NCBI GenBank assembly: GCA_963678705.1
Contig: OY783221.1
Span: forward strand, 1,054,001-1,118,000
Origin: Panorpa germanica
Taxonomy: Eukaryota > Arthropoda > Insecta > Mecoptera > Panorpidae
Reading direction: 5' to 3'
Length of the DNA: 64,000 bases
The translations under genes and the position numbers were made by a program. Below the pieces are notes generated by a model. That model did no database searches. It was given only the letters and a program-made list of their open reading frames with translations, and was not told the origin of the DNA. Below, piece by piece: positions 7,178 through 61,735 of the stretch. The number at the start of each line of letters is the position of its first letter. The first letter of the stretch is position 1.

Positions 7178-7859
7178 AATGGGCTTGTGTCCTCATTTTT
7201 TAGTGGTCGATTCAATTGGTAATTAAAATTGATGTTAATAAATGTGTATTGGCGTGTCTATTTTATTAAATATCTAAATGTTGACGGAGATATAGCAGTT
7301 AAAAATTGGAATTGTAATTTTAGCGCTATAAATGGTCGGCCATATTTGTATGACATGAAATGCATTTTAACTTCAGTTATTTCTTGAGTAGATCAGTGCT
7401 GTGGTAGTCGAAATAATCAAGTCAAATCAAAGAATAATAAGTTTTTATTTTATTTAACCCTGTTATGGCAGACAATGGTTATTGGAATTTTATTGTTCCT
7501 TGAAATAACTGTAAATAATATTTGATATTTTGATGTATAAATACATATAGCAGAGATTTATGAGCTGTAAGGTTGGTAACCTGTAAACTTGTCAGAGTTC
7601 TGTCAAGAATATATCTCTTTTACGCTCTATCGTATAAAAGAGATAACTACTAGCGGTTATGATGTCACATGCAATTGGAATGTGTACAACGTTGAATCTA
7701 TTAATAATTAAAGAGACAAAATGACTATTTTAATTGTTAATATCTCCTAACATATAAGGAGTTATTCAAAAATAATTGAACATTTGAGATTCTAGTAACC
7801 AACTTTATCAATATATAGTACACTTTTATAGAAATTAAGACATAGGACACAAGCCCATT
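7178..7859 (+). mobile_element. Family B MITE, full-length copy
   Basis: It has perfect 16-bp terminal inverted repeats, AATGGGCTTGTGTCCT on the left and AGGACACAAGCCCATT on the right. It is about 680 bp with no transposase. The whole length aligns by eye with the copy at 25304-25941 (opposite strand), and the right part with 61258-61735. No clear target-site duplication was seen, so the superfamily is undecided. Part of the open frame at 7737-8003 lies in this repeat end. Confidence 0.85.
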
Positions 7860-11107: not shown

Positions 11108-11911
11108 TTAACAATCCACTACTGGGTCTTTTAAGGAACAGTTGAAATTTCAAACTCCTATTTCTCTCTCATAAGTACAGAGCGCGCTTCACCTATGCCC
11201 CCTAAAAAATCTAGGTAGTGGTAGGGACTTAATGTTTCAGTGTACAAACGACGTTAGTATTTTCCAATGTTAGTAAATGCACTTTTTTTTGCTTTTCTCG
11301 TTGTTTTTCAATTTTTTCATGTTTAAAATAAATGTTTTATGTAATTTAATATATTATTTCTTAGATTATATATATAGATCTTTTTACTACAATAAGTTTT
11401 TGAAGATGGGTGGCAATTCAACGTAAAATCTCTTTTTGACACTAATTATTATTAACTAATATTAATTATTATTTCATAACTTTTGTATTTTCATCAGTAA
11501 AACTTATTTTGTGCTGTTTATTATGACATGCCTGAATCCGTATAATATTCCCCACTTTTAGGTGCACAAATAATTCAACTTTTTGGAGCCCACGCCAAAG
11601 ACACTACATTCTTTCGAAAGCTTATAGTCTAAGGTAAAAATGTCTACAACCGTTTTTCTTAATATTTGTTTGTTATAAAGTTATGAATTTTTTAACAATA
11701 TTCCGTTTTTTCCGCGTTTTTCACTATTTGTGAATTTTTGTTAACAACGGTTTTAAAGTTTGGACTTTGGCAACTTCTGGACTATGTAGTAGACACTTCA
11801 AGAAGTAATTTTTACAGATTTCTTGAAAGCTCAGAAAACACCCTGTTCCCTCAAACACCCAGTGTACACACCATGTCTCGAAAAATATAGTGTTCTTCGG
11901 AGGAGGGTTAA
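11108..11911 (+). mobile_element. Family C piggyBac-type non-autonomous element, copy 1
   Basis: TTAA at both ends (11108 and 11908). The right end reads inward from AACCCTCC through AACACTATATTTTTCGAGAC to GTGTACACTGGGTG. The left end is degenerate but retains CTGGGTCTTTTAAGGAACAG as the inner inverted repeat. TTAA targets followed by CCCT suit the piggyBac superfamily. There is no transposase frame; the open frame at 11724-11921 (minus) is only the repeat. Confidence 0.75.
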
Positions 11912-14084: not shown

Positions 14085-14692
14085 TTTTTATTTTTATTTA
14101 TTATTAATTGTGTGTGCCTTTCGGCTTTACAATCTACCGTATTCTATTTCTTAATACATTTCATTCCTATCTTAACAATTCAACCTTAAAACTAAACTTT
14201 ATTAATTTTATTTAAAACTAATTATTTACTTAAAACTAAACTTTATTTATTAAAACTAAAAAAAAAATTATTCTAGACTTTTAGTACTTCTAAAAAGTGC
14301 TTTCTGCTTCTTCTTCTCTTGACCCTCTCTATTATTCTCCACCAGCTTATTTATTCTCCTGTTCTTCCTTTCCTTCTTACTATTTCCGCCATCCACCTCT
14401 TTCCTTCACTGCCTCCCTTTAGTAGCTGGCCAATATTCCTTTCGCTCGCTACTTTTTCCTTACACTCAAACTTAATGTGCTCCAGTGTTTCGTCCTCCGC
14501 TCCGCACATTCTACACTTTCTTTCCTCACTCTTTTCCCAGTATCTGTTTCCTTTTTCCTCATTTCCCAATCTAAACCTTGCTTTTCTTCTTATGTGTTTT
14601 ATGTCTTTTTCTATAAGGTACTGAGGCACATTATTTTCCCATAACCTCTTATATCTTTTATTGTAGTTACTTTGTTCTATTTTTCCCCTTAA
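14085..14692 (-). mobile_element. R1-like LINE, 5'-truncated 3' end with zinc-knuckle tail and 3'UTR
   Basis: The minus strand encodes about 110 residues of the C terminus of a non-LTR retrotransposon ORF2. In order: NYNKRYKRLW, VPQYLIEKD, ARFRLGNEEKGNRYWE, then CRMCGAEDETLEHIKFEC, a CCHC knuckle typical of these elements, then the GQLLKGGSEG stretch and a stop at about 14351. The 3'UTR runs to about 14085 and holds GCCGAAAGGCACA near its AT-rich end. The endonuclease and reverse-transcriptase domains are missing, as usual for a 5'-truncated insertion. The frame starts with V, not with a real start codon, and its coding part is open. Confidence 0.85.
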
Positions 14693-17769: not shown

Positions 17770-18405
17770 AAGGAGGGGTAAGGTCAAAACGATAAAAGAG
17801 GAAGCATATTTTCGATAATGTTTTTTGACGATTATTTCTATAATTACTACATAATAAAATGACATTTGAAGAATACTTTGTGAAATTTTTATAAATCAAT
17901 ATCAAGAAATGAGGCGTTGATAATAATTCTCCGCAAACGTCACAAAAAAAAGTAACATTGCGGTGCCAGTCATAACTCATCACTGGATTTTCTGAAATCG
18001 ACAAACCAAAATGATTTCATTAGTTGATAAGTTTCTGCAGGTAACGCTGTTAAGCTTTTCTTTTTTTATTGATTTTTAAAAAATTTACAGCACTTAAAAG
18101 TCAAAATGCCGATTTTTCTCAAATACTCCACAGCGCTACCTCGGCATTTATGTAAAGAAAGAGTGTACAAAATTTCAAAAGAATCGATCCAGTAGATTTT
18201 GACCTAAAGATGCGACTCTGAAAAAGCTAAGTGTGAGAAATCGCATTTAAAAGTTTCAAAGTAACACGAAAGCAGACCAGAGAGGTGAAGACTTAAAACG
18301 CTATATCTCCGACAATTTTACTCCGATCGACTTCAAATTTTTACGCAATAAACTTAATATGTTGTACAACAATATAAATAAATTTTAAAAAAATTAAGAA
18401 AAAAA
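17770..18405 (-). mobile_element. Family A MITE, copy 2
   Basis: The end TTAAGGAGGGGTAAGGTCAAAACGA is the best-kept terminus of the family. The other end stops in an A-rich tract without its inverted repeat. The minus strand keeps a frame with SYDWHRNVTFFCDVCG and YRFDLTPP, parallel to the copy at 56862. The other termini of the family suggest an inverted repeat of about 13-15 bp. Confidence 0.8.
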
Positions 18406-19800
18406 GAGTGTGTCATACACCAGTGCTTGGAATAGGAATACTTATTTGTTTACTAATAATATACAAAATATCAGTACAATATGTTTAGAAAGAATAAAAA
18501 TTTTTGATAGCATTACTGTCCATGTCATTTACTGGCTTTTACAATTGTTGATAATTTACAACGCTGCCTGACGACATTTTTACAATCTAAAAGCTGCAAA
18601 TGATTATAAAAAGTTTGTTCGTTAAACATTAAAACTCCACATAAAACTATTAAACCTTTTATTACACGAAAATGTTAATAAAATTTATATATCTCTAGTA
18701 AGTTACCTTCGAAATGTACGAATATTAAAATAGTATAAACGTTTAAGACGCCTCCCCTCCCCTCGCCACCGTTTGAGTTATCTCACGTTGAGTCTAAAGC
18801 AGTCGGTCATCAACATTCAGCATCTGCCAAGGCATGTAACATAAAATGTATTTTATAAGACATTGCAAGAAATTATAGGACTGTAAAATGTAGAAGGTAT
18901 ATATTGTACTATATTCCTAGGATGTCTGGCTTGTTGAAACTTGCAGCTCAGGTGTGGAGGCTACGGGTTTATAACATGGACCATGTGTAAAGAAAAGGGA
19001 TGTTCACAAGGAGTGAATAATCTAAAAAAATATTAATTTCATTGCTAGTATTTTTACGTTTTCTTCCATGTTGAATTATTTACTGTAATTAGCTTGTAGT
19101 AAACTAACAAACGTGAAACATGCTCTGCAAGACAATTCTTTTTTAATAAAGTGTAGCCGATAGCTTTGCTATTCCTTTAAGCTGGTGAACCCGCGAATAA
19201 ATTCGCCTCTGTCTCTAATCCTACAATAATGAAAGTAAAACTTAAAATTAGTTTTAAACATAATAAAGTAATTAGCAAGTAAACAACTTTTTACTTGTTT
19301 GTGTTATAATTAATAATATAAATCTGTTTTCAAAATTAAATTGCTAAGTTAAATTAAATTGCAAAAAAATGTACAAGAAAGACAGACTCTGCTGGTTTGC
19401 AGAGATGCCACGAATCGCACCACTTCGCATCGCGGTTTCTGAAATCTTTTGGACCGTACATTGTAATTTATACTTATAATTACATTTCCTGTCTTTATTA
19501 CTCTCTTCTTAGTAATTATAAATTGAGAGAAATAAAAATAGTTTGTACAGTTTTGTTTTTATTTATAATAACTGTCAACAAAATGCCCTTCAACTCAACT
19601 TTGCACCGTTTTTTCGGGGCGGCTCTGCTATTAAACCTGTACCAAACTATACGGTGAAGGTTTGATTCAAGTATTGGAAGATTGATATAGCAAGTTTCCT
19701 GCTACACGGTGGGACGAATGTTTGACTCGAATAATTTATTTATTTTATTAATTTGTTGATATTATTGACACTGACACTGTTTAACAAAAACTTTCAACTA
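18406..19800. other. Intergenic, no gene seen
   Basis: One C-rich island at 18752-18765. The open frame at 19397-19657 is AT-rich and featureless. Confidence 0.55.
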
Positions 19801-25303: not shown

Positions 25304-25941
25304 AATGGGCGTGTGTTCTATGTCTTAATTTCTTACTAGAGGAACTTTTGAGGTTACTAGAATCTCAAATGTTTAATTATTTTTTAATAACTCCTTATAT
25401 GTTAGGAAATATTAACAATTAAAAAAGTCATTTTGTCTCTTTAATTATTATAGGGATTCAACGTTGTACAACATTTCAAATGTATGTGACACCACAACCG
25501 CTAGTTGCTATCTCTATATTCTTGACAGAACTCTGACAAGTTTACAGATTACCAACCTTACAGCTATGTATTTCTATATCAAAATATCAAATATTATTTA
25601 CAGCTATTTCAAGGAACAATAAAATTTCAATATTAAGTCTGCCGTAACAGCGTTAAATTAAATAAAAACTTATTATTCTTTGACTTGACTTGATTATTTC
25701 GACTACCAACAGCTACAAAATATTACCACAGCACTGACCTAATCAACAAATAACTGACGTATATTTCACGTCATACAAATGGTTCTCTAGTGCTAAAACT
25801 ACAATTCAAATATTTAATTGCTATATCTCCGTCAACATTTAGATATTTAATAAAATAGACACGCCAATACACATTTATTAACATCAATTTCAATCAACAA
25901 TTGAAAAATCGACCACTGAAAAATGAGGACACAAGCCCATT
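25304..25941 (-). mobile_element. Family B MITE, near full-length copy
   Basis: Ends AATGGGCGTGTGTTCT and AGGACACAAGCCCATT. The internal sequence matches the copy at 7178-7859 in reverse orientation nearly throughout, with small indels. Non-coding. Confidence 0.85.
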
Positions 25942-30588: not shown

Positions 30589-33500
30589 ATGAGTAAACAC
30601 ATAGAAAGGTACCCAGTATTCGCCACTAGAGGCACTTACACTGCGATGGCGGTCAAATTGGAAGCTGCCAGACGAAGTTACAAAATATTGAAATCTAAAG
30701 CTGATGGTATCACTGTCAGGTATATTAATAACAACAAAAAATGTCCAATGTTTTTTTATTTTGTTTATCTTTATCATTCACAATTGATAACACTATCATT
30801 GACTTTCTATTTCACAAGGTTTCGAGCGGTTTCCAGAAATGTTGTGCATTACAAAGATCAGATTCATGCCGTCATGAAAGAAGCTTATTTGACATTTGCT
30901 GAAACTAAGTTTGTTATGGGAAATTTTAACACTTCTGTTATGGAAAGTATAAGTTTAGCAAAGGTATTATTATTTCTTGTTAAAGTTATATATGTATCGT
31001 TGGGATGTATAGAGTCAAAGTAACTCGGTTCCATATTTGCCATATGTTTCCATCATCGTAAACTTAATTGGCAGTAATTTAGGGCACATATATCAAACCT
31101 TGACATCATAAAGATGTCAATACTGTAAGACGACGACGACGGTGAGAGACTGAGCATAGGAAATGGACTGTAGTATCTAATTGTATCTTGTCACAATTGC
31201 CTTCAACGGTAGGCTTATTTCAAAGGCAAACCTAGCGCCTCCTGTGCCATAGTTAATACGGCTCTGCACAATTTGCAGGCTTCTCATTTGAAAGATTGCA
31301 ATTGCAGTGATAATGTGTTTCTACAAATATTAAAAAGCATTACGTCCCATACTTATTTTCTTTTGGTTTTTTAAAAGTAGTTTTCTCAACTAATCCATCT
31401 CCATTAATTACATCCGTTGAACAGAACTGCTGCGGCATCGTTAATTGTTTCATGTCGTAATAATGCAGAGATCCTGCTCGGCTGCTCCTGTATCATGGAA
31501 ACTATTTTCCTGCATTTATATTTTATTCATGATGTTGGCTGTTAGTCTTTAGCCATCTTCTATGTTTGTTGCACCATCATAAAGCCTTTAAGGTATGTTG
31601 GCAGCTTTGTTGTATGGAATAATATTAATAATATTATCTTGATCAGGGTAACATTGATGCAGCATCATCATCTCCATATAGAACTGAAACAAGGTGCTCC
31701 AAGAATCGTTTTTCTTCACAATCACTTTATTTCAATACAGTCGCATTCGTCTTAAGATAGCTGACTCTCTTTTACCGACACAAATTTGTGTAAGATACTA
31801 ACACATTTGTCTACTCATAGATGGCTATATGATCACTGTCGTTTCACTGTCTATTTTGATTTTCAGCGTATTAATAATTTGTTTGCGTTGTGGCAGTATA
31901 ATCATATTATGTTACTATGCACAAATATATTTATAAGTTAATAATTATGATCGCGCTATTATCATTACTTCTGCATACGACAACAAGCGGCCAGTAAATG
32001 AACGTATTTATATGTAATTAATATTCTGTTAGCCATAGTGTTGTGCATTAATACAAGTGTTTCCTTGTTAAACATATTATCGTATTATAAAATGTAATTT
32101 ATATATATAATTTCTGCCAGGCAAATCAAAAAGTAGACGCATCGACCGAGCACGTGGTGGGTGTTTTCTTAACCTATTTAAATGTCGTTGAAGATGGTCC
32201 TGATAATTATACGCTCATAGGTTTGGGTACTGGATACGCCATGATGATGAAATTGAAAGCATGTTTCAAAAGAGCTATTAAGTTACTAGTAAAGGTGACA
32301 TCTTTGGAAGCTGCTTTTCTTAAGTTCGATAGATCTCTAATAGATACGAACAGGTATGTAGAAAATGAAATAGCTGAAATTCAACAACAAGTACAATTTA
32401 ACGCAAACTGTGTCCACTTGTTACTGCAGGCGACTGAACGCATGTGGTCACGTGGTCATTCCGCGTCTTGAATTCACGCTCTGTTGGATTAATTCCGAAT
32501 TAAACGAAATGGAACGTGAAGAATTTTTCAGAATGAAGAAAATAAAAGCAAAGAAAGCACGCGAAGCAGAAGCCAAAGAGAAAGCAGAACGTGATGCGAA
32601 AAAGGAGTTATTGGGTGGAGGAGAGGGAGGACAATTTCCACCTTCTCCATGTCAGTCAGTTGTAGATCATGGAGATATTATGAAAGAGAAACCTTTCAGT
32701 GCTGCATATAAGGAAGAATTTGATCCGAGTTTAATTTGTCCAGGAAGAGGTGTTTGCCCCGGTGAAAAAGGCCGTCCACCTGCTGCGAGTGTCACCTTTA
32801 AAGAAGAGTTTGATCCAAGCCTAATTTGCCCAGGAAGAGCTGTTTGCCCCGGTGAAAAAGGCCGTCCACCTGCTGCGAGTGTCACCTTTAGAGAAGAATT
32901 TGACCCAAGCCTAATTTGCCCGGGAAGAAATGTTTGCCCTGGTGAAAAAGGCCGTCCACCTGCTGCCTTTAAAGAAGAATTCGACCCGAATTTAATTTGT
33001 CCAGGAAGAGCTGTTTGCCCCGGCGAAAAAGGCCGTTTACCAGCTGCTTTTAAAGAAGAATTTGATCCAAGCTTAATTTGCCCAGGAAGAGCTGTTTGCG
33101 CCGGTGAGAAAGGCCGTGCACCTGCTGCTTTTAAAGAAGAATTAGACCCAAGTTTAATTTGCCCAGGAAGAAATGTTTGCCCCGGTGAAAAAGGTCGTCA
33201 TGTAGAAGATCTGGCATCAACATCTCAACAACAATCAGACCCTGGATACTATGCATTCATTCCTGAATGTTGTAAAATGAAATACCCCCCTGCTATTCCA
33301 GACTGTTGTATTCCCGATAAGAAAGTGACTTCCCTAAATGTAGTATTAGAAATCCCTACTGATCCTTCAACTGTTGCTCTATCAATTGGAACCCAGGTAC
33401 ATGGTCATACTGTTGTTGTCCAAACAAGTGCACCCCCGATAGCATCTACTTCACAGCCCTGTGCACCAACGAAAGCAATTCTTTCACTTCAGCCTTATGT

Positions 33501-33780
33501 TCCTCCATCGGAAGGAAAACCTTTCTTACAAGGAATGAAATGTCGACAGAGAAGTGAAGGATTACGAGAAATGGAAGAATCGGCGGTACCAAAGCCAGGT
33601 GTTAGTGAAGCTTCTCAAGCATTCCGTTGCACGCCTGGAGGACCTAGGCCACCAGGAGGTTGTGTAGGCCAACATAGAGCGAAACGGTGCGATATATGCT
33701 GTAGGTTCTGTCCTAAATGTTCTAACCATGATCCCAGGCTTCACAACTGTTCCCACGGGAAGGACGAACATAATAAATAA
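30589..33780 (+). CDS. Vha36-like: V-type ATPase subunit D paralogue with long CPG-repeat, Cys-rich C-terminal extension (4 exons)
   Basis: Exons are 30589-30719, 30819-30963, 32121-32353 and 32430-33780, all with GT-AG introns of 99, 1157 and 76 nt; the joined frame stays open and gives 619 residues. Residues 1 to about 230 match V-ATPase subunit D along their length: the N-terminal ARR/KSKADGITVRFR block, then VMKEAYLTFAETKF, then TNRR...HVVIPRLE..L and SEL.E.EREEFFR.KKI, ending in a Lys/Glu/Ala-rich helix. Subunit D is the coiled-coil central rotor of V1. Known D proteins are about 250 residues, so residues 231-619 are extra: six CPG repeats (263-426), CC pairs near 450 and 462, and a Cys/His-rich end (581-619). 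The start has a good context (CATCACCATGA) and begins in the subunit D N terminus. From memory, Drosophila has testis-biased Vha36 paralogues, so a sperm role is my inference. A polypyrimidine tract ending CAG at 30573 could be a 5'UTR acceptor. The subunit D identity is secure; the function of the tail is unknown. Confidence 0.9.
32707..33198 (+). repeat. Six in-frame tandem repeats encoding the CPG motif array
   Basis: This is the array inside exon 4, residues 263-426. Each unit reads Y/F-K/R-E-E-F/L-D-P-S/N-L-I-C-P-G-R-x-V-C-P/A-G-E-K-G-R, with the two cysteines in a C-x5-C arrangement. Successive starts are 30, 30, 27, 27 and 27 residues apart, because the first two linkers contain PPAASVT and later ones only xPAA. 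Most DNA differences between units are at third codon positions (GAT/GAC, AGT/AGC, TTA/CTA, TGT/TGC). Amino-acid changes cluster at the x residue (Gly, Ala, Asn). Confidence 0.95.
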
Positions 33781-33847: not shown

Positions 33848-33853
33848 AATAAA
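33848..33853 (+). terminator. Polyadenylation signal AATAAA for the V-ATPase D paralogue
   Basis: A canonical AATAAA lies 68 bases after the stop codon, in a short AT-rich 3'UTR. It is the first such hexamer downstream of the coding end, and the distance is normal for a compact insect 3'UTR. Confidence 0.6.
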
Positions 33854-34794: not shown

Positions 34795-35205
34795 TTAACC
34801 CTTCGTGTGAACACTATATTTTTCGAGTCATAGTGTGCGCACTGGGTCTTTGAGGGAACAGTTTTTTTATTTTTCTAGGTCTCAAAAAAATTGAAAAAAT
34901 TCTGGATTACTTCTTGAAGTGTCTACTATATGGTCGAGAAGTTTCCAGAGTCCAAAGTTTAAAACCTTTGTTAATAAAAATTCACAAATAGTGAAAAACG
35001 CGGAAAAAACGGAATATTGTTAAAAAATTCATAACTTTATAAAAAACAAATATTTGGAAAAACGGTTGTAGACATTTTTACCTTAGACTATAAGCTTTTG
35101 AAAGATTGTAGTATCTAATATCTAATCTAAGAAATAATATATTAAATTACATAAAACATTTATTTTAACTATGAAAAAACTGTAAAACAACGAGAGATTT
35201 CTTAG
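34795..35205 (-). mobile_element. Family C piggyBac-type element, copy 2 (truncated)
   Basis: Starts TTAACCCTTCGTGTGAACAC, then TATATTTTTCGAG and CACTGGGTCTTTGAGGGAAC, the clearest terminus of the family. The body matches the right half of the copies at 11108 and 51071 in reverse, with an internal deletion. It stops near 35205 without the second end. Confidence 0.8.
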
Positions 35206-35964: not shown

Positions 35965-36470
35965 AAGGGAGGGGTAAGGTTTCAATTTTTTTTTTAATTT
36001 ATTTATATTATTGTACAACATATTAAGTTTATTGTGTAAAAATTTGAAGTTAATTGGAGTAAAACTGTCGGAGATATAGTGTTTTAAGTCTTCCCCTCTC
36101 TGGTCTACTTTCCTGTTTCTTTGAAATTTTTAAATGCGGTTTCTCACACATAGCTTTTTCAGAGTCGGTGCCCTCTCTAGCTCAAAATCTACTGGACCGA
36201 TTCTTTTGAAATTTTGCACACTCTTTCTTTACATAAATGCCGAGGTAACGCTGTCGAATTTTTTTTTAGTTTTTTAATTTTAACGTATTTTAAAATAACA
36301 AAGTTTCTGATTTTTTTCATGAAAAATCGGTATTTTGACTTTTAAGTACAAAAAATGAAAAAGCAATAAAAAAATAAAAAGTTGACAGAGCGTTACCTGC
36401 AGAAACTAATCAACTAATGAAATCATTTTGGTTTTTCGATTTCAGAAAATCCAGTGATAAGTTATGAGTG
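35965..36470 (+). mobile_element. Family A MITE, copy 3 (3' truncated)
   Basis: Starts TTTAAGGGAGGGGTAAGG. Matches the other copies through the GGACCGATTCTTTTGAAATT block and the GTTATGAGTG step, then stops, losing the right terminus. Confidence 0.8.
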
Positions 36471-48808: not shown

Positions 48809-49441
48809 AGGTGTGGGTGAAGGTCAAACCGATAAAAAAAAGCATATTTTCGATAAATGTCAAATGTCATGATAAAATGACATTTGAAGAATACTTTGTG
48901 AAATTTTTATAAATAATTGTCAAGAAATAAGGCATTGACAGCGAATCTGCGCAGACTCATAACTCATCACTGGATTTTCTGAAATCAAAAAACCAAAATG
49001 ATTTCATTAGTTGATAAGTTTTTTTAGGTAACGCTGCCGAGTTTTTCTTTTCGTATTGATAAAAGTCAAAGTACCGATTTTTCATGAAAAAAATCAAAAA
49101 CTTTGTTATTTTAAAACACGTTGAAATTAAAAAATAAAATAAAACTCGAAAGCGTTACCTCGGCATTTATGTAAAGAAAGAGTGTACAAAATTTTAAAAG
49201 AATCGGTCCAGTAGATTTTGAGCTAGAGAGGGCACCGACTCTGAAAAAGCCATGTGTGAGAAACCGCATTTAAAAGTTTCAAAGTAACACGAAAGCAGAC
49301 CAGAGAGGTGAAGACTTAAAACTCTATATCTCCGACAGTTTTACTCCAATCGACTTCAAATTTTGACACAATAAACTAAATAAGTTGTACAATAATATAA
49401 ATGAATAATAAAAAAATTAGAAAAAAAAGGTTGACCTTACG
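48809..49441 (-). mobile_element. Family A MITE, copy 4
   Basis: Left end GTGTGGGTGAAGGTCAAACC and right end GGTTGACCTTACGC, an eroded inverted pair. The body matches copy 2 closely in the same orientation, with a deletion that removes the CxxCG part of the family frame. Confidence 0.75.
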
Positions 49442-51070: not shown

Positions 51071-52013
51071 TTAACATTCTGTTCAACTGTCTCAACTTAT
51101 TCCGGATTGTACGTGTGTACACTGGGTCTTTTAAGGCACAGTTGAAATTTCAAACTCTTATTTCTCTCTCATGAGTACAGAGCGCGTTTCACCTATGCCC
51201 CCTAAAAAACTAGGTAGTGGTAGGGACTTAAGGTTCCAGCAGCGTCCGGATCTGGCAGTTTACCGGCAAAGGCGAGCCAGTGATACTTGCCTCTGTACAC
51301 ACGACGTTAGTATTTTACAATGTTTGTAAATGCACTTTTTTTTGCTTTTCTCGTTGTTTCACAGTTTTTTCATGTTTAAAATAAATGTTTTATGTAATTT
51401 AATTTATTATTTCTTAGATTATATATATAGATTTTTTTTATTACTTCATCTTTTTACTACAATAAGTTTTTGAAGATGGATGACAATTCGACGGTTACGC
51501 ACCGTAAATTCTCTTTTTGAAACTAATTATAATTAACTAATATTAATTATTATTTCATAACTTTTGTATTTTCATCAATAAACTTATTTTGTACCGAATA
51601 ATCACCGTTCCGTTTATTATGACATGCCTGAATCCGTAAAATATTCACCACTTTCAGGTGCACAAATAATTCAACTTTTTGGAGCTCACGCCAAAGACAC
51701 TACATTCTTTCGAAAGCTTATAGTCTAAGATAAAAAAGTTTAAAACCGTTTTTCTTAATATTTGTGTGTTATAAAGTTATGAATTTTTTAAGAATATTCC
51801 GTTTTTTCCGCGTTTTTCACTATTTGTGAATTTTTATTAACAACGGTTTTAAACTTTGGACTTTGTCAACTTCTGGACCATGTAGTAGACACTTCAAGAA
51901 GTAATTCAGAATTGCTTCAGATTCTTTGAAAGCTTAGAAAACTCGACTGTTCCCTCAAAGACCCAGTGTACACACCATGTCTCGAAAAATATAGTGTTAA
52001 CACGCAGGGTTAA
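51071..52013 (+). mobile_element. Family C piggyBac-type element, longest copy
   Basis: TTAA at 51071 and 52010. The right end reads inward as TTAACCCTGCGTGTTAACAC, then TATATTTTTCGAGACATGG and GTGTACACTGGGTC; the left inner part has GTGTGTACACTGGGTC. It is about 940 bp, and keeps a GC-rich segment (51238-51300) missing from copy 1. No transposase frame. Confidence 0.85.
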
Positions 52014-56861: not shown

Positions 56862-57528
56862 GAAAGGGGGGGTTAAGGTTTCACTTTTTTTTTATTTATT
56901 TATATCACTGTACAACATTGTGTTTATTGTGTAAAAATTTGAAGTCGATTAGAGTAAAACTGTCGAAGATATAGTCTACTTTGGAGTTACTTTGAAACTT
57001 TTAAATGCGGTTTCTCACACTTAGCTTTTTCACTGTCCATGTCTTTTCTAGCTCAAAATCTACTGGACCGATTCTTTTGAAATTTTGCACACTCTTTCTT
57101 TACATAAAGTAGCCGAGGTAATGCTGTCGTAACGTATTTTAAAATAACAAAGTTTCGGATTTTTTTCATGAAGAATCAGTATTTTTACTTTTAAGTGCTG
57201 TAAAAAATTGAAAAATCCATAAAAATAGAAAAACTTCACAGCGTTATTTGCAGAAACTAATCAACTAATGAAATCATCTCGGTTTTATGATTTCAGAAAA
57301 TCTAGTGATGAGTTATGAGTGGCACCGCAATGTTACTTTTTTTTGTCGCGTCTGCGGAGATGCGCTGTCAATGTCTCATTTCTTGATATTTATTTATGAA
57401 AATTTCACAAAGCATTCTTCAAATGTCATTTTATCATGTAGTAATTATAGAAATAATTATATATTAACTGTGTCGTCAAAAAACATTATCGAAAATATGC
57501 TTCTTTTTCATCGTTTTGACCTTAACCT
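56862..57528 (+). mobile_element. Family A MITE, copy 5
   Basis: Starts GGAAAGGGGGGGTTAAGGTT and ends CGTTTTGACCTTAACC. It has both ends and most of the internal body. A 98-residue frame (57287-57583) with SYEWHRNVTFFCRVCGDAL is the best-kept version of the family frame. Confidence 0.8.
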
Positions 57529-61257: not shown

Positions 61258-61735
61258 CATCAGTGCTGTGGTAATGTTTTGTAGCTGTTGGTAGTCGAAA
61301 GTCAAAGAATAATAAGTTTTTATTTTATTTAACCCTGTTGAGGCAGACATAATATTGAAATTTTATTGTTCCTTGAAATAACTGTAAATAATATTTGATA
61401 TTTTGATATATAAATACATATAGCGGAGGTTTGTGAGCTGTAAGGTTGGTAACCTGTAAACTTGTCAGAGTTCTGTCAAGAATATATCTCTTTTACGGTC
61501 TGTTGTATAAAAGGGATAGCACCTAGCGCTTGTGATGTCACATGCATTTGGAATGTTGTACAACGTTGAATCCCTTTAATAATTAAAAGAGACAAAATGA
61601 CTGTTTTAATTGTTAATATCTCCTAACATATAAGGAGTTATTAAAAAATAATTGAACATTGGAGATTCTAGTAACCCACTTTATCAATATGTAGTACACT
61701 TTTATAGAAATCAAGACGTAGGACACAAGCCCATT
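61258..61735 (+). mobile_element. Family B MITE, 5'-truncated copy
   Basis: Matches the right two thirds of the copy at 7178 from CAGTGCTGTGGTA onward and ends AGGACACAAGCCCATT. The left terminus is missing. The minus-strand frame at 61613-61807 shares NGLVSYVLISIKVYYI with the frame at 7737-8003 because both cross this repeat. Confidence 0.8.

Follow-up and report, generated by a model that had tools for sequence, protein, structure and literature searches.

A gene in a 64-kb window of Panorpa germanica (the window being the whole stretch of DNA that was analysed, 64,000 nt) codes for a protein which begins like subunit D of the V-type ATPase and ends in a long Cys-rich tail. Where the shaft of a rotary motor bears a long arm, the direct question is whether such a subunit still turns.

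Gene structure

The gene model, rebuilt and translated, extends from the ATG at 30589 to the last stop base at 33780. It has four exons with 1860 nt of spliced sequence, corresponding to 619 residues and the stop codon. All three introns (99, 1157, and 76 nt) are of the GT-AG type. A preliminary description of this DNA had arrived at the same length (about 619 residues, where about 250 are usual). The features are as follows:

30589..30719, + strand: exon 1, residues 1–43 and two bases of codon 44; subunit D core, with the PF01813 match starting at residue 19
30819..30963, + strand: exon 2, up to residue 92; subunit D core
32121..32353, + strand: exon 3, residues 93–169 and two bases of codon 170; subunit D core
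32430..32613, + strand: core part of exon 4, C-terminal piece of the subunit D core, up to residue 231
32614..32706, + strand: linker, residues 232–262
32707..33207, + strand: repeats, residues 263–429, six units in tandem, each 27 or 30 codons long and built like FKEEFDPSLICPGRAVCPGEKGRPPAA(SVT)
33208..33780, + strand: C-terminal part, residues 430–619 and stop, with ECC and DCC pairs and the last module CDICCRFCPKC
32670..33197, − strand: antisense open frame of 176 residues across the repeats, regarded as a by-product
33848..33853, + strand: AATAAA polyadenylation signal, starting 68 nt past the last stop base

Exon 4 (32430–33780, 1351 nt) carries core residues 171–231 and the entire tail in one frame, which agrees with the earlier claim of a single open exon after intron 3. 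At the junction of intron 2, the alignment shows two residues more than mammalian D has at that place, and the exact splice sites of this intron are thus putative.

It had also been claimed that core and tail are joined without a splice choice. This applies to the join itself: when GT sites were scored with simple, hand-set weights, using the three real donors of the gene as yardstick (5.2–10.1), none of the 15 sites ahead of repeat 1 was within the real-donor range, the best being that at 32651 (score 4.3 vs. at least 5.2). The claim does not extend to the full tail. In exon 4, 3 of 76 GT sites (32942, 33104, and 33397) have a score in the real-donor range, so that a shorter tail is possible. 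Early polyadenylation is possible as well, because two signals of this type are found within the core (AATAAA at 32541 and ATTAAA at 32499).

No second gene was recognised in the window (1–64000), in which small exons of other genes could be missed. There are 22 stop-to-stop frames of at least 95 codons, four of them overlapping the D-like gene. A Pfam scan covered 6 of the other 18 frames, together with three that are shorter and the antisense one; among these, the sole match above cut-off was to CDC48_2 in the antisense frame (27.1 bits, cut-off 22.4), where no stretch passes alone, and it was set aside as low-complexity. A frame of 113 residues at 14351–14692 (− strand) matches zf-RVT below threshold (20.2 bits vs. 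a cut-off of 27.5) and may derive from the end of a non-LTR retrotransposon that has decayed. Three families of dispersed repeats were encountered. Copies of the first occur in at least five places and in both orientations (763–1247, 17831–18406, 35980–36470, 48868–49429, and 56884–57525; 64–93% alike among the pairs listed). The second is found at 11121–11810, 34870–35195, and 51121–51941 (88–96% alike among the pairs listed), with one copy about 1.1 kb downstream of the D-like gene. The third occurs in two orientations (7211–7859, 25352–25905, and 61299–61735).

The subunit D core

The assignment of the N-terminal ~230 residues to subunit D is confirmed by two family models, both with scores above their curated cut-offs: PF01813 (residues 19–210, 141.6 bits, cut-off 25.7, profile positions 4–196 of 196) and TIGR00309 (residues 10–214, 127.3 bits, cut-off 72.25, profile positions 4–208 of 209). 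Each of the 12 PDB matches at E values of 0.001 or below bears the name of subunit D, from V-type ATPases or from ATP synthases. The D-like protein also shares two tracts with mammalian D, TNRRxNAxxHVxIPRxExTL and ELxExEREEFxRxKKI. Six narrower NCBIfam equivalog models, which represent prokaryotic D, also matched, all below their own cut-offs. Subunit D usually has about 250 residues and ends soon after its C-terminal helix (247–261 residues in eukaryotic-type PDB chains), compared to 619 residues here. As this length is usual rather than defining, we call the core a member of the family and the whole protein a variant.

The core was also compared to contigs from other sources. Two scans of viral contigs gave 3 and 600 pattern matches, respectively, none of which was confirmed. 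An alignment of the core matched 526 stretches in prokaryotic contigs, one of which was confirmed as a bacterial relative (L001, 24% identity). A match in a phage collection is restricted to core residues 10–204 (22% identity, E 4e-3). An L1 trimerisation domain at residues 190–210 was sub-threshold (E 0.072) and was set aside.

The core has diverged, as had been suspected. Its five best PDB chains, which we take to be mammalian (the PDB output gives molecule names only), score 160.9–162.5 bits, and the aligned core is about 40% identical to mammalian D. As a yardstick, a mammalian D query was scored against the chains 7uw9, 3j9t, and 36qu, which are named V-type proton ATPase subunit D and have 256–261 residues; the first is presumably from a plant and the second from yeast. 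This query reached 238.6, 233.2, and 229.8 bits, respectively. Judged by these scores (about 162 bits against 230–239), the D-like core lies further from mammalian D than the three chains do, unlike what is expected for a housekeeping animal D. The gene is probably a paralogue of that for the standard subunit D.

The Cys-rich tail

The tail (residues 232–619, 388 residues) contains 27 Cys and 53 Pro, while there are 3 Cys in the core. Its repeat units start at residues 263, 293, 323, 350, 377, and 404, with spacings of 90, 90, 81, 81, and 81 nt. Each unit has two Cys which are six residues apart, both being kept in 6/6 units, and also contains a KEEFDPSLI segment. The preliminary description had reported six CPG repeats. 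There are indeed six repeat units, but the number of CPG triplets is 11, two per unit except for unit 5, which has CAG at the second place. When the tail was shuffled 2000 times, CPG occurred 0.33 times on average and at most three times. The repeats are followed by the ECC and DCC pairs and a terminal CX2CCX2CX2C module. At third codon positions, the tail has a GC fraction of 0.25, against 0.37 for the core and a window average of 0.32; the high GC of the tail thus comes from its amino acids.

Residues 232–619 reached no curated cut-off in Pfam and NCBIfam and had no match among PDB sequences at E values up to 1, which supports the view that these modules are new to V-ATPases. Neither viral contigs (no stretch matched) nor prokaryotic contigs (36 stretches fitted a pattern, none confirmed) gave a confirmed relative of the tail, a result of little weight, since such contigs would hardly carry an animal gene. 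Sub-threshold matches to DUF7495 (E 0.03) and, at residues 355–366, to spore_safA (E 0.0011, no stretch passing alone) were set aside. The PG-rich repeat of sperm tails (SHIPPO; we take its model to be PF07004) did not appear when the protein and the tail were searched against Pfam at E values up to 1, a search in which the HMMER filters may drop weak matches. A structure predicted for residues 171–619 (no alignment) has a mean pLDDT of 38.8, with values below 50 for model residues 66–449 of 449. It shows a helix up to residue 230, strands ahead of that helix, and nothing confident beyond it. Subunit D is expected to be helical in the stretch before its C-terminal helix, and the model is thus poor. 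A disordered tail would fit this prediction, which is weak evidence.

Is the tail made as a protein at all? It might be a minisatellite of the 3′ region which is open by accident, with transcripts ending early. The strong tandem array would agree with this, as would the two early polyadenylation signals, the three donor-like sites, and the antisense frame, which is likewise open across the repeats. However, the chance of finding 388 open tail codons is about 5e-14 at the base composition of the window and still about 3e-10 at that of the tail itself. A further 190 codons are open past the repeats, and a polyadenylation signal closely follows the stop. Moreover, the repeat units differ mostly by synonymous changes. 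The pooled pS is 0.352 and the pN is 0.089 (15 pairs from six copies which are not independent of each other; 26-codon units were used, the final codons having drifted in copy 6). When 23-codon units are aligned, third positions make up 12 of the 19 columns that vary (P 0.007 if one third is expected). The repeat thus looks constrained as a protein. Frame arithmetic by hand places the third codon base of the antisense frame on the third base of the sense frame, which is why we take that frame as a by-product. Because the wobble bases coincide, the pS/pN values show coding constraint irrespective of strand, and the coding strand of the tail follows from its in-frame join to the D core. We consider the minisatellite reading hardly credible.

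Possible role on the rotor

Both termini of D probably sit at that end of the A3B3 barrel which is farthest from the membrane, and the tail would thus leave the enzyme there. Extracts from the literature describe D and F as the axle of the A/B hexamer in V-type enzymes, with D inserting a short helix and a loop into subunit d (PMC3899036, PMC5758568). The position of the D C-terminus is not stated in the extracts from these two papers and from PMC3470569 and PMC7367684.

We consider it somewhat likely that the D-like protein is a specialised, probably tissue-restricted D paralogue which is part of the shaft, with the tail as a flexible tether or cross-linking arm. Going by homology, its coiled-coil core can probably still occupy the shaft position. 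The protein would assemble as the shaft of a specialised V-ATPase, and the tail would emerge from the barrel as a flexible arm, whose regularly spaced Cys pairs may tether or cross-link either the whole pump or V1 to its neighbours. Disulfides might form between the Cys if the cell is oxidised, as in mature sperm, resulting in the disulfide-linked structure envisaged in the preliminary description; alternatively, the last CX2CCX2CX2C module might bind metal.

If a tail on a rotating shaft becomes fixed, rotation stops. Either this is the function, or the protein is no longer in the pump. According to the former, an oxidised or metal-bound arm in maturing sperm would lock the rotor or tie V1 heads into an array, leaving a stopped or structural pump, which we regard as distinctly improbable. 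The latter is the chief rival to a shaft subunit with a tether: the D-derived coiled coil would have left the V-ATPase and be reused structurally, e.g. in sperm tails or in their mitochondria, where the Cys-rich repeats would do the cross-linking. The diverged core is compatible with this, as is a repetitive, Cys/Pro-rich tail which is constrained at the protein level, and enzymes of another type provide a precedent, Sperm-Leucylaminopeptidases being described as components of the sperm paracrystalline material (PMC6388916, in part). However, the mammalian D tracts are kept and the family cut-offs are passed, which suggests that selection still acts on the shaft contacts, and we consider structural reuse to be unlikely.

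Use in the male germline is plausible by analogy to Drosophila, where Vha36-2 and Knon (both treated below) are the precedents. According to the available parts of the sources, 11 of 17 Drosophila V-ATPase paralogues which lack the dCLEAR motif are testis-expressed (PMC10452791), and the V-type ATPase complex is enriched in the Manduca sperm proteome; the authors put it under mitochondrial terms, however, which speaks against our reading (PMC5712127). The alternative is a specialised D subunit of somatic, for example epithelial, tissue, whose tail would anchor the pump or control how it assembles. The sequence itself holds no pointer to testis, and the third Drosophila D gene, Vha36-3, has a low signal in all tissues tabulated in the extract (PMC3734111). 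Against a somatic role stand the 11 testis-expressed paralogues and the statement that epithelia favour one gene per subunit (PMC3734111, in part), both being precedents only. We consider somatic use to be rather improbable. A D paralogue of this kind was not found described in the open-licence literature (partly judged by title), and V-ATPase terms do not occur in the text of PMC10721206 and PMC6154878.

Comparison with known systems

Compared to V-ATPase subunit D, the protein is alike at residues 10–214, along nearly the whole family profile; it is unlike by its 388 extra residues and by a core identity of 40% to the mammalian chain.

The tail had been likened to the Cys-Gly-Pro sperm-tail proteins of Drosophila. 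For ACATCNAAATTT, which we take to be the 5′ translational control element (TCE) of Mst(3)CGP genes, the best site in the 300 bases upstream of the ATG (counted from the ATG rather than from a mapped transcription start) has 3 mismatches in 11 positions. The Mst(3)CGP family (Mst84D, Mst87F) is characterised, in the available part of the source, by repeats of Cys, Pro, and Gly with the motif Cys-Gly-Pro (PMC10645079). Repeats of these three residues are common to both, but the tail has no CGP as opposed to 11 CPG in 388 residues, and its CPG triplets are within units of 27 or 30 residues that include the KEEFDPSLI segment. The likeness is thus superficial.

Drosophila Vha36-2 (CG13167) is a second insect D gene, as the D-like gene would probably be, and testis restriction is a feature of its array data: in the extract, its signal is 716 in testis, 0–3 in nine other tissues, and 45 in the whole fly (PMC3734111). 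For the D-like gene, restriction to a tissue is a probable feature.

The architecture resembles that of Drosophila Knon (knotted onions), even though Knon is an F-type subunit d of the mitochondrial peripheral stalk and is unrelated to the V-type rotor subunit D. Knon is described as a testis-enriched paralogue of ATP-synthase subunit d with 734 residues, of which 532 form a C-terminal extension that is mostly predicted to be unstructured and is devoid of known homology; the protein persists in mature sperm (PMC5364652, in part). Both proteins thus combine a rotary-ATPase subunit with a large C-terminal extension of no known homology, in our case as judged by Pfam, NCBIfam, and PDB. The extensions differ in composition, that of Knon being 28% Glu or Lys (PMC5364652, in part) and that of the D-like protein rich in Cys, Pro, and Gly. 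Together with Knon, the D-like protein would suggest that insects have extended a rotary-ATPase subunit more than once, possibly for sperm.
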